Shown piece by piece: positions 54,930 through 61,832 of a stretch of DNA of 64,000 bases. Below the pieces are notes generated by a model. That model did not search any database. It was not told where the DNA came from and saw only the letters and a program-made list of their open reading frames with translations. The position numbers were made by a program, and so were the translations under genes. The stretch is from Mycobacterium sp. UM_WGJ (lineage in GTDB: Bacteria; Actinomycetota; Actinomycetes; Mycobacteriales; Mycobacteriaceae). The stretch spans positions 1-64,000 of the forward strand of contig NZ_AUWR01000027.1 in assembly GCF_000455125.1 (NCBI RefSeq). Reading direction: 5' to 3'. Every line of letters begins with the position of its first letter. Position 1 is the stretch's first letter.

Positions 54930-55118
54930 CGGTAAGGCGATGACGAATGAGGAAGCCGGTGCGAATCCGGCGCGGTCCCGCCACTGTCATCGGGGAGCGA
55001 CCCTCATCAGCCACGGCCCGCCACTTGTGGGGTTGGAAGGCGAGGCGAGCAGTGATCCGAGAGCCAGGAGACTCACGTCAACGCGTCCTGCGAACCGGGG
55101 CGGTGTACCCCGAGGAAG
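54930..55118 (+). promoter_or_regulatory. Cobalamin riboswitch of the ABC importer operon
   Basis: The aptamer contains GGAAGCCGGTGCGAATCC, CCCGCCACTGTCATCGGGG, the paired arms ACCCTCATCAGCC, and the closing GAGAGCCAGGAGACTC (55060-55075). The platform CGGGG-cggtgta-CCCCG at about 55096-55112 precedes GAGGAA. It lies back to back with the cobN riboswitch. It shares long identical blocks with the PPE riboswitch at 61637-61832. Confidence 0.9.
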
Positions 55119-55131
55119 CTGACTCACGCTC

Positions 55132-56328
55132 ATGTCCCGTGCGTTGCGGGTAGTTGCTGCGCTCCTGGTAGCGCTGGCCACCGCGCTGTCGTTGGCCGGC
55201 TGCTCCGGCGAACCCGCTTCCCGCACACTGCAAGCGCGTTCCGGCTGCATCACCGGCTTCGATCCGGCCGCCGACTACTTCCCAGACAAGTCGACGCTGA
55301 CCGAAGCCACCAACTTCGCCATCACCTACCACGGCAGCTACCAGGTTCTGACGGTCAAGCGGCCCTACCTCGGCGGCAAGCCGATGTCGTGGGTGTTGGT
55401 GCGCTGCGGTGCGCCCACGCCGACGCTGACCGGGGAGCTGGCGAACGCCCAACGGATCACCGTCCCGGTGCAGAGCCTCTACTCGGGCTCGACGACGCAT
55501 CTGGCGATGATCACCGAACTCGGCCAAGCCGGCGTGGTCACCGGAGTGGCGAGCCCGGCAGCCGTCGCCGACCCGCAGATCCGTGCGCGCATCGACACCG
55601 GTGAGATCGTCGGCTACGCCCCCGGCGGGCAGATCAATATCGAGCGCGTGATCGGCGCGGGCCCCGACCTGCTGGTCACCGAGGGCATCGACGACCCCGG
55701 CTATCCCAAGCTGCGCGAAGCCGGCACCCCGGTGCTGGCCGACGCCGAATGGCTGGAACCGACCCCGCTGGGCCGCGCCGAGTGGATCAAGGTGTTCGCC
55801 GCGCTGACCGGGACCGAACGCCAAGCCGCGCAGGCCTACCAGGCCATCCGCGACCGTTACCGTGCCTTGGCGGCTCAAGCCGCCGCAACCAAGCCCGTCG
55901 AGGTCTTGGTCGGCACCATGTACTCGGGCAGCTGGTCGATGCCCACTGGCGAGAGCTACTCGGGGCGCCTGGTTGCCGACGCCGGCGGCGCCTACCCCTG
56001 GCTGTCGGACACCGGCGCCGAGAACCGGCAACTGAACTTCGAGTCGGTGTACGCCCGTGCCGGCACCGCGCCGGTCTGGCTGATCACCGACGACTGGCAC
56101 ACCCTGGGCGATGCGGTGGCCCGTGACAGCCGCTACGGCGAGCTGACCGCGCTGCGGACCGGCCACGTCTGGTCGGCGACCAAGGCAATGACATCCCTTG
56201 GCGGCAACCTCTATTGGGAACGCGGCACGGCCCGACCGGATCTGATGCTCGGCGACTTGGTCGCGATCCTGCATCCCGAGCTCGCCACCGAACACGCGTT
56301 CGAGTTCTACCGGCGGGTGCCGCGTTGA
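55132..56328 (+). CDS. Substrate-binding lipoprotein of a FecB/BtuF-type ABC importer
   Basis: A 398-residue lipoprotein. The signal ends in the lipobox LAGC (Cys about 24), and the rest is a Peripla_BP_2-type (class III) binding protein: ITGFDPAADYFPDKSTL, ANAQRITVPVQSL, the hinge ALTGTERQAAQAYQAI and the C-terminal LGGNLYWERGTARPDLMLGDL. Family members bind ferric siderophores, heme or corrinoids. The cobalamin riboswitch directly upstream makes a corrinoid substrate the most likely. The stop overlaps the permease TTG start. Confidence 0.88.
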   Translation: MSRALRVVAALLVALATALSLAGCSGEPASRTLQARSGCITGFDPAADYFPDKSTLTEATNFAITYHGSYQVLTVKRPYLGGKPMSWVLVRCGAPTPTLTGELANAQRITVPVQSLYSGSTTHLAMITELGQAGVVTGVASPAAVADPQIRARIDTGEIVGYAPGGQINIERVIGAGPDLLVTEGIDDPGYPKLREAGTPVLADAEWLEPTPLGRAEWIKVFAALTGTERQAAQAYQAIRDRYRALAAQAAATKPVEVLVGTMYSGSWSMPTGESYSGRLVADAGGAYPWLSDTGAENRQLNFESVYARAGTAPVWLITDDWHTLGDAVARDSRYGELTALRTGHVWSATKAMTSLGGNLYWERGTARPDLMLGDLVAILHPELATEHAFEFYRRVPR

Positions 56329-59861: not shown

Positions 59862-61598
59862 CTAGTCCGGCTCTGCCGGCCAGGTGTTGGGCATCATCGG
59901 GCTGATGGCGCCACCGCCGAATCCGTCGTCGGTCAGCGCGGTCAGCCCGCCCGGCCGTGCGCTGCTCACCCGGTGGGTGCCACCCGCGAAGCCCTGCGAT
60001 CCGGCTCCTCGACTGGAGGCGACCGCCCCGGCGAGTTCCGGCACCGCATCCGGCTCCAAGTCCATATACTCATAGCCGCGGCCGAGCATGCCGACCTTGG
60101 CCTTACGCCGACGGCGCTGCGGGGCCTTCTGCTCCGCCGATTCCTCCACGGGCGCCGCCGCACTGTCCGGCTTCGGCGCCGCCTTCTTACGCGAGCTGGT
60201 GCCTGAGCCTCGACGAGCGCCCATGTCCAAGCCGCCGACCATGTACATGTAGGCGGGCATGGTGACCGACGGCGGTCCCGCCGGAGTCGGCGGCGGCGCT
60301 CCGGGCGGCGGAGGGGCAGCTGCTGCCGGTGCCGGCGCAGGGGCGGGCGCGGGAGCCGGAGCAGGAGCCGGAGCGGGAGCCGGTGCCGGCGGCGAAGCCA
60401 TCGCCAGTCCCGGCGGGGGCGCAGGAGGCGGCGGCACCGCAGCGGCCAACGCATGATGTGCCATCGCCCCGATACCCAGACCGCCGATCACTCCCGCAGA
60501 TCCGAGCACGGTCGTGCCGGCCATCGTGGCGGCCAGCGCCGGCAGCAACGCCGTCTGGGTGATCAGATAGTTCAGCGCCTGAATGGTGTTGCCGATGGTG
60601 GACGTGACGATCTCGACCATCGCCAACGGCACCACCACACCCAGCGCCTGGGGATTGAACAGCGCCGTGTACATCATCGCGATCACGTCGTCGATGATCA
60701 CGATGCTGGTGAACGCGAAGTAGGAGCCGGGGTCCAGCGGCACCGAGAAGACATAGGCCAAACTGGCGGGGTTGAAGAAGCTGAACGGGTTGCCGGTCCA
60801 ACCCAGCCAGGAACCGGGAACCGGCCACGGCGGCAACAGCGGCGAGCCGGCCTGCAGGCTGGCAAAGAAGTCTGCGAACGGATCGCCGAGACCGGTGTAG
60901 CCGATCTTGGCAAAGAACTCCTGCAACTCGACGTACAGCGGGTACTGGCTGCTGTCGGGATAGGGCGGGCTGGGCACCAGGCTTTCGAGCCATTTGGCGA
61001 AGTCCAGGAACCACTGCGGTGGATCCGGCGCGGTGTCCGCCGCGCTGCCGGGCGTCTTGAGCACCATCGGCGCCGGCTCGGTCTGGGCCGCCGCGGCGGT
61101 CGCGACCGCCGCGCCGGCTACCGCCTGATAGACGGTCATCACGGCTGCGGCCTGCGCCCACATCCGCGCGTAGTCGGCCTCGTTCAGCGCGATCGGAATC
61201 GTGTTGACACCAAAGAAATTCGTGCCCACCAACACCGCGTGGGTCACATGGTTGGCGACCAGCTCAGCCATGGTCGGCATCGCCGCGAGCGCGGCGGTGT
61301 AGCCCGCGGCCGCCGTCTCCTGCTGCGCCGCGGTGGCGGCACTGTTGGTGACGGCACGCAGCAGCCAGGCCAGATAGGGGGCGTTGGCGGCCACGAACGC
61401 CTCGGCGGACGGCCCCTGCCACGCGCCGGCCTGCACCGCACCCAGCACCGCCGTCAACTCATCGGCGATCGCGGCGTATTCAGTGCTCAACGCGCTCCAC
61501 GCCGCAGCCGATGACAATAGTGGTCCGGCCCCGGGGCCGGCCGACAGTGACGTTGAATGTACTTCTGGCGGAGAGGCCATCCAGATCGGTGCAGTCAT
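59862..61598 (-). CDS. PPE protein of the PPE-PPW subfamily, PPE2-like
   Basis: A 578-residue PPE protein. The N-terminal PPE domain (about residues 1-180) has PPE at 10-12 and the WxG turn GAWQG near 60; the middle contains hydrophobic segments; a Pro/Ala repeat linker is at about 388-440; a basic cluster RRRRKAK lies near 495; the end has the PxxPxxW motif (PMMPNTW) of the PPW subfamily. The start MTAPIWMASPPEVHS and the downstream NHVTHAVLV, TNFFGVNTIPIALNEADY resemble Rv0256c PPE2, which is itself under a B12 riboswitch. The riboswitch here and the convergent B12 importer tie it to corrinoid physiology. A role in permeability is inferred. Confidence 0.9.
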   Translation of the reverse strand: MTAPIWMASPPEVHSTSLSAGPGAGPLLSSAAAWSALSTEYAAIADELTAVLGAVQAGAWQGPSAEAFVAANAPYLAWLLRAVTNSAATAAQQETAAAGYTAALAAMPTMAELVANHVTHAVLVGTNFFGVNTIPIALNEADYARMWAQAAAVMTVYQAVAGAAVATAAAAQTEPAPMVLKTPGSAADTAPDPPQWFLDFAKWLESLVPSPPYPDSSQYPLYVELQEFFAKIGYTGLGDPFADFFASLQAGSPLLPPWPVPGSWLGWTGNPFSFFNPASLAYVFSVPLDPGSYFAFTSIVIIDDVIAMMYTALFNPQALGVVVPLAMVEIVTSTIGNTIQALNYLITQTALLPALAATMAGTTVLGSAGVIGGLGIGAMAHHALAAAVPPPPAPPPGLAMASPPAPAPAPAPAPAPAPAPAPAPAAAAPPPPGAPPPTPAGPPSVTMPAYMYMVGGLDMGARRGSGTSSRKKAAPKPDSAAAPVEESAEQKAPQRRRRKAKVGMLGRGYEYMDLEPDAVPELAGAVASSRGAGSQGFAGGTHRVSSARPGGLTALTDDGFGGGAISPMMPNTWPAEPD

Positions 61599-61636
61599 CG
61601 CGCACCGCCGGATGCCACCCGAAAAGGGCGCAACAT
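61595..61636 (-). CDS. Leader micro-ORF coupled to the PPE gene
   Basis: Thirteen codons MLRPFRVASGGAR begin right after the riboswitch platform, at the same place where the importer lipoprotein starts (MSRALRVVAALL), and the DNA is similar at its start. The TGA stop overlaps the PPE ATG as ATGA. It may be a relic of a duplicated lipoprotein start or a real leader peptide. Evidence is position and overlap only. Confidence 0.45.
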   Translation of the reverse strand: MLRPFRVASGGAR

Positions 61637-61832
61637 GGGGGTTTGTCAGCTCTCTCGGGGTACACCGCCCCGGGTCGCAGGATGCGACGATGTGAGTGTC
61701 CTGACTCTCGGATCAACGCTCGCCTCGCCTTCCAGCTCCATCAGAGCCGTGGCAGTTGAGGGTCGCTCCCCGATCACAGTGGCGGGACCGTGCCGGATTC
61801 ACACCGGCTTCCTGCACCATCGTTGCCGTACC
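61637..61832 (-). promoter_or_regulatory. Cobalamin riboswitch of the PPE gene
   Basis: On the minus strand: GGAAGCCGGTGTGAATCC, CCCGCCACTGTGATCGGGG, GAAGGCGAGGCGAGC, the closing GAGAGTCAGGACACTCAC (about 61693-61710) and the platform CCGGGGCGGTGTACCCCG. Many of these blocks are identical to those of the importer riboswitch at 54930-55118. It controls the leader micro-ORF and the PPE gene. Confidence 0.9.

Follow-up and report, generated by a model that had tools for sequence, protein, structure and literature searches.

Why does a gene of the PPE family lie beside a vitamin B12-type importer in a mycobacterial genome, and why do both stand behind the same kind of B12 riboswitch? The question is raised by the first 64,000 nucleotides of contig NZ_AUWR01000027.1 of Mycobacterium sp. 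UM_WGJ (GCF_000455125.1; this whole stretch is called the window below), in which a run of importer genes, BtuF-BtuC-BtuD/FhuF-DUF7676 (55,132–59,709, plus strand), converges with a PPE gene (59,862–61,598, minus strand). The answer favoured here, with somewhat better than even confidence, is that this is a unit for corrinoid uptake, repressed by B12, whose PPE protein serves the mycomembrane step, and that in some lineages the PPE gene once lay within the importer operon. The importer operons and the conserved neighbourhood described below name one candidate gene and its partner importer for the crossing of the mycomembrane by B12, and thereby make that question directly testable.

Four cobalamin riboswitches are recognised in the window by the Rfam model RF00174. 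Those of the importer (aptamer 54,907–55,093, plus strand, 94.0 bits) and of the PPE gene (61,674–61,856, minus strand, 91.0 bits) both exceed the gathering cut-off of 31.5 bits, and the corresponding leaders (54,907–55,131, and 61,599–61,856 on the minus strand) are identical at 179 of 219 aligned positions (82%, pairwise), with identical runs of 20, 18, 17, 15, 12 and 11 bases. Compared with the other two switches, a short aptamer (98 nt) before cobN (54,803–54,900, minus strand, 35.6 bits) and a fourth switch at 40,097–40,245 (plus strand, 41.9 bits), identity is about 50%, both for the importer leader (64/129 and 112/225, respectively) and for the PPE leader (68/128 and 113/223). The alignment of all four leaders therefore bears out the first-pass annotation of this DNA, which had noticed long identical blocks in this pair. 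The likeness includes the expression platform of the importer (55,097–55,131, plus strand, from the sequence and a pattern search), which consists of a hairpin, GGGGCGGTGTACCCCG (55,097–55,112), the Shine-Dalgarno (SD)-like GAGGAAG (55,112–55,118) and a spacer to btuF, and which is also present in PPE leaders. The window holds two exact copies of GGGGCGGTGTACCCCG, the second being the platform hairpin of the PPE leader (61,656–61,671, minus strand); at up to two mismatches there are 3 matches versus 0.18 expected, a number reached in 0 of 100 shuffles. At the position where the importer leader has the btuF start, the PPE leader has the start of a 13-codon upstream open reading frame (uORF; 61,595–61,636, minus strand), the stop of which overlaps the PPE start as ATGA, in the same arrangement as uPPE2 of Mycobacterium tuberculosis (PMC11260477).

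How old is this resemblance? A tree built from 130 leaders places the importer leader of the window among 23 that all belong to importers (support 100/99); the PPE leader falls among 22 that all belong to PPE genes (98/94). With each leader in its own multi-species clade, a recent duplication within the genome is ruled out, and the two are, as judged from the tree, old sister types. The pair had been called near-duplicate, a term that is wrong if recent copying is meant. By BLAST, the importer leader of the window is 88–99% identical to importer leaders of other species in a search of 148 genomes (and 83% to one found in a search of 396 genomes), 85% to its own PPE leader, and 82–90% to the PPE leaders of other species. 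The label "importer" requires 6 changes on the leader tree, at least 4 of them forced by well-supported branches, and the two outgroup leaders, from Dietzia and Pseudonocardia, both lead an importer.

Queried with the importer-leader DNA, 97 of the 396 genomes of the genus yield 122 places at E ≤ 1e-30 (BLAST). From these 97 genomes, 124 leaders were counted as distinct stretches of at least 100 nhmmer bits, a cut-off below which PPE-B, cobN and other leaders fall and are not counted: 32 lead btuF, 90 a PPE gene, 1 FhuF and then a PPE gene, and 1 a PE gene, three of these assignments (FhuF-then-PPE, PE and one PPE) having been made by eye. At least 41 loci from named genomes were confirmed as well; 11 are kept in the leader rows and none enters the count of 124. 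This leader type is dedicated to importer or PE/PPE genes. Behind the leader on the PE gene (L167, 8,008–8,600) come a short uORF and what we take to be a PE-family gene, in place of a PPE. In four PPE leaders (L173, L231, L246 and L259), a frame that begins at or near the place of the uORF runs into the PPE as an N-terminal extension. In two importer genomes (G073, L070 near 6,734; G226, L262 near 4,435), the aptamer is lost between the first bases of the leader and the SD, and the importer is switchless.

The importer begins with a BtuF-like, lipoprotein-type substrate-binding protein (55,132–56,328; Pfam Peripla_BP_2, 1.1e-20; lipobox-like LAGC read by eye), followed by a BtuC-like permease with a TTG start that overlaps the btuF stop (56,325–57,365; FecCD, 2.8e-76), by a BtuD-like ATPase fused to a FhuF-like domain and overlapping btuC as ATGA (57,362–59,116; ABC_tran, 1.9e-26; FhuF_C, 2.3e-8), and by a DUF7676 protein at the end of the run (59,131–59,709; DUF7676, 3.6e-71), all on the plus strand. 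A binding protein, a FecCD permease and an ATP-binding cassette (ABC) ATPase are thus encoded together according to Pfam. The NCBIfam equivalog cut-offs are missed by the permease (195.8 vs 334 bits for BtuC, its best match, 9.8e-58) and by the ATPase (107 vs 281 bits for BtuD), so that the importer is classed as B12-type by its context and not as BtuFCD proper; in this sense the earlier assignment of a B12-type importer beside a convergent PPE gene stands. Its closest named relatives, among the matches listed, belong to Mycolicibacter species. The BtuD-FhuF fusion, and mostly DUF7676 too (57,362–59,709 in the window), accompany the importer in mycobacteria and Dietzia, and neither was found in two Nakamurella importer loci. 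As a guess from the domain, the fusion suggests reduction of the imported corrinoid by a possible corrinoid reductase; no link between FhuF and cobalamin was found in the literature searched, as judged by titles, and no PDB profile matches DUF7676 (best E 0.51).

The PPE protein carries PPE and PPE-PPW domains (Pfam, 6.4e-57 and 4.4e-14; closest PDB chain PPE4), and has the marks of the PPE2 subfamily, namely these two domains together with a compact B12 switch and an ATGA-overlapping uORF. In a PPE tree whose rows do not include M. tuberculosis PPE2 itself, one set of 115 rows holds 112 of the 113 linked PPEs, switch-led or operonic (SH-aLRT, the Shimodaira–Hasegawa-like approximate likelihood ratio test, 89), and 3 of the 19 PPEs that are not linked in the stretch seen. 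The C-terminal part of the window PPE shows RRRRKAK and then LGRGYEYMD, which resembles the nuclear signal region RRRRPKIKQ of PPE2 as given in the available part of PMC5223167. A basic C-terminal cluster was rejected as a mark of the group, being present in 16 of 18 full-length PPEs that are not switch-linked in the stretch seen. Since basic clusters are common among the compared PPE proteins, host targeting need not be the first role of this C-terminal cluster.

Does the PPE keep company with the importer elsewhere? Judged by the BtuF profile, 40 of the 396 genomes of the genus have the importer, intact in 39 and broken in one. A PPE lies within 7 kb of it in 34 of the 39 intact cases (any PPE match counts, some of them made only by the C-terminal part), so the neighbourhood is conserved: 23 are convergent, 7 stand in the importer operon directly behind DUF7676, 3 are downstream on the same strand with a leader of their own, and 1 is divergent. 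Operonic PPEs are found, among the named matches listed, in M. shimoidei DSM 44152, M. kyorinense DSM 45166 and Mycobacterium sp. MFM001, and in the latter two an ATGA overlap links the DUF7676 stop to the PPE start. In G357, the genome with the divergent PPE, cobQ is found along with importer, leader and PPE, which combines the importer type with the cobQ-type locus that has been reported in M. tuberculosis. A leader-led or operonic PPE occurs in 36 of the 39 importer genomes, versus a leader on a PE/PPE gene in 60 of the 357 others (Fisher 1e-21, without kinship correction and with the cases clustered in few lineages; G086, with a PPE leader lying beyond the contig end, is entered as lacking). 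In one (G377) of the five importer genomes counted as without a linked PPE, the contig ends beside the importer. In M. uberis and two leprosy-type genomes of 3.27 Mb (L178, L179 and L120), fragments of the importer lie divergent to a retained, switch-led PPE.

Traces of the operon can also be sought in the uORFs. The first 36 bases after the start were compared between 65 uORFs and 35 btuF starts (29 different sequences); the uORFs comprise 63 overlapping ones and 2 of 4 labelled "uORF_other", leaving out the other 2, 6 "PPE_other" and 18 direct starts, and the start was set by hand for one uORF (G148) and four btuF rows. The best pair, the uORF of G100 and the btuF of G320, agrees at 31 of 36 nucleotides (peptides SRPAWVAVVVAT and PRLAWVAVVMAA). 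In all, 15 of the 65 uORFs beat all 300 of their own codon shuffles and 26 beat 95% of them; eight smaller control pools, each made up of 3 to 23 starts of other genes, reach at most 19/36. When 74 uORFs were compared with nine importer operons, some of them near-identical, operon 3' sequence was found in collinear position in three uORFs: that of G118 (39 nt, 87%, E 2e-5), that of G148 (25 nt, 96%, E 1.6e-6, plus 15 nt of the FhuF tail GGLCGDC) and, as a borderline case, that of G131 (21 nt, 95%, E 3e-4). The best match of the reversed control has E 0.005, and matches at E ≤ 0.05 are made by 18 of the 74 forward uORFs versus 9 of the 74 reversed; one forward match, of the G072 uORF (E 5e-4), is non-collinear. 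In G388, the leader is followed by a short start, a FhuF domain and then the PPE. Most simply, deletions would have brought the btuF start together with the 3' end of the operon, so that the uORFs of several species look like a scar. The uORFs of the window and of the leprosy-type genomes, whose start similarity to btuF is not significant, are included in this account by their position only.

Outside the mycobacteria, RF00174 lies upstream in five of seven importer loci, those of Dietzia, Pseudonocardia, two Nakamurella and one member of the Bacteroidetes. At the Bacteroidetes locus, the first gene of the run downstream of the switch encodes a TonB receptor, the best NCBIfam match of which is TonB-B12 (64.8 bits, under the cut-off of 599.7), and this importer kind therefore has an outer-membrane part beside it there and a PPE in mycobacteria. 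The first-pass annotation had suggested that the PPE supports corrinoid passage across the mycomembrane; the shared operon and this BtuB-like receptor lend the suggestion contextual support, and the transport itself is what we infer from them. The composition of the locus resembles that of BtuB-BtuFCD in E. coli, with a substrate-binding protein, a FecCD permease, an ATPase and a proposed outer-membrane partner; unlike in E. coli, the PPE stands in the place of BtuB, the ATPase is fused to FhuF, and DUF7676 is added.

The preferred reading can be put as a mechanism. As the homologous ppe2 leader of M. tuberculosis has been tested as an OFF switch (available part of PMC11260477), the two window leaders would presumably act as related translational OFF switches when corrinoid is plentiful. 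The switch of the importer leader would shut off BtuFCD-FhuF-DUF7676; that of the PPE leader would shut off the uORF and, via re-initiation at ATGA, the PPE. Corrinoid transport over the inner membrane would fall to BtuFCD, a reduction of the imported corrinoid perhaps to the FhuF domain, and the mycomembrane step most likely to the PPE, in the role that BtuB has in Gram-negative bacteria. In at least some lineages, the PPE would formerly have been part of the importer operon, and deletions would have fused riboswitch, SD and btuF start to the operon 3' end, giving rise to the uORF. A wider claim, which we consider evenly balanced, is that proteins of the PPE2 type do in mycobacteria what BtuB does elsewhere, as mycomembrane entry proteins for corrinoids that B12 represses and that were once encoded in a BtuFCD-FhuF-DUF7676 operon, and that the uPPE2 relay is a deletion scar; the relay would then be kept because PPE translation still needs ribosomes that start at the former btuF start. 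A scar would give the odd uORF relay of ppe2 a simple origin, and would predict in which species the joint can still be seen.

A number of observations weigh against this reading. PPE genes insert widely, and the one here may be a passenger that came to lie behind a B12 switch by such an insertion and was kept for a different purpose, for instance in host interaction, without transporting corrinoid. Ppe2 "invading" the cobQ/U locus is discussed in the available part of PMC11260477, and host-cell roles have been reported for M. tuberculosis PPE2 (PMC5223167, as far as available). Moreover, 60 genomes have the leader on a PE/PPE gene and no intact importer, which means that the PPE does not need this importer; within the stretches fetched, a PPE is missing beside the importer in four of the 39 importer genomes (G094, G072, G362 and G215), and a leader of this type is missing from seven of the 39 importers (G030, G072, G073, G215, G226, G357 and G362), two of which have visibly lost the aptamer. 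The earliest mycobacterial branches of the leader tree are PPE leaders, but these branches are weakly supported and the outgroup is long, for which reason the tree does not settle the first target within mycobacteria. We nevertheless regard a passenger as rather unlikely, given that four different arrangements (operonic, same strand with its own leader, convergent and divergent) put the PPE beside the importer, that a fifth genome retains leader, FhuF and PPE, and that the pairing of leader and PPE is kept in 97 of the 396 genomes or, where the PPE is operonic, goes without a second leader.

Another possibility is that importer and PPE handle a different metal chelate, either a complex of cobalt or a ferric siderophore, with B12 as regulator only. 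FhuF domains are known from siderophore reduction, and the fused domain fits this idea. So does the binding protein, which in a PDB profile search fits iron-chelate binders (2e-8) better than BtuF (4e-5) and whose sole NCBIfam match is the heme-binding IsdE (5e-4, below cut-off); the best NCBIfam match of the ATPase, also below cut-off, is an F420-0 transporter ATPase. Sequence profiles by themselves do not settle the substrate, the PDB profile search being non-discriminating for BtuF. Against the corrinoid reading also stand two Prevotella importer relatives, among the seven loci scanned, that are without RF00174; in favour of another chelate, PPE2 was once proposed for cobalt transport (available parts of PMC11260477 and PMC12713380). 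Such a chelate seems improbable to us in view of the RF00174 switches before the importer in Dietzia, Pseudonocardia and both Nakamurella loci, the BtuB-like receptor of the Bacteroidetes relative, and the permease that matches BtuC best. As for the scar, the likeness between uORF and btuF might stem from convergence of short GC-rich leader peptides instead of descent: 50 of the 65 uORFs, including those of the window and of the leprosy-type genomes, do not beat all their shuffles, leaving 15 that do; the window uORF reaches 18/36, a value matched by 37 of 300 shuffles and not significant; and the 3' match of G131 is hardly better than the non-collinear one. Convergence would, however, have to produce 31 of 36 identical nucleotides where the shuffle maximum for that uORF is 22 and the control-gene maximum 19, together with the two stronger collinear 3' matches and a FhuF domain still standing between leader and PPE in one genome, and we consider it very improbable. 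A corrinoid uptake unit with the PPE at the mycomembrane is thus the reading retained here.

Parts of this picture are already in print, namely the B12 switch of ppe2, the uORF relay and BtuFCD-like mycobacterial operons (PMC11260477, PMC12713380 and PMC8088520, each as far as available). M. tuberculosis ppe2 (Rv0256c) has an experimentally tested B12 riboswitch with a uPPE2 relay that acts as an OFF switch, and the window PPE resembles it in its compact B12 switch, the hairpin at the SD and the short uORF whose stop forms ATGA with the start of the PPE. By contrast, ppe2 of M. tuberculosis precedes cobQ-cobU, with no importer mentioned in the available text (PMC11260477), whereas the window PPE adjoins one, and the PPE of relatives lies inside an importer operon that the uORFs of several species match. 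In M. smegmatis, MSMEG_4560-4558 is described as a putative BtuFCD operon of untested function (available part of PMC8088520), a BtuFCD-like system in a mycobacterium as in the window, likened here by its description; "PPE" occurs 0 times in the main text of that article. For other PPE proteins, uptake of nutrients across the mycomembrane has been reported, of trehalose for PPE51 (with LpqY-SugABC) and of heme for PPE64 (available parts of PMC8826857 and PMC12802285). They differ from the window PPE in substrate, and no riboswitch or shared operon is mentioned for them in these texts; such paths, taken with the linkage to the importer, are part of the ground on which corrinoid passage by the PPE is proposed. 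No report of a PPE-importer operon, of the dedicated leader type or of the scar origin of the uORF was found in the literature searched, which does not prove that none exists.

The surroundings of the locus add further B12-related features. The CobN cobaltochelatase subunit (51,199–54,771, minus strand; NCBIfam TIGR02257, above cut-off) is divergent from the importer, and the aptamers of the two are placed back to back, their Rfam matches only 6 bases apart (54,803–54,907). The switch at 40,097 leads a gene that we take to be chelatase-like. The whole genome has six RF00174 switches. The fifth lies just beyond the window (C27:65,502–65,681, minus strand), is 73% identical to the importer leader (141/194) and leads a second PPE gene, the 3' end of which is in the window (63,873–64,000, minus strand; L024, 3,874–5,682). 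This related, diverged switch has an extra insert near P5 and is without the P7-P11 arm (arms judged by eye); many loci of the Mycolicibacter type likewise have a second PPE with a diverged switch, placed between icd and the first PPE. The sixth switch, on contig C12, leads a reading frame that is presumably MetE-like.

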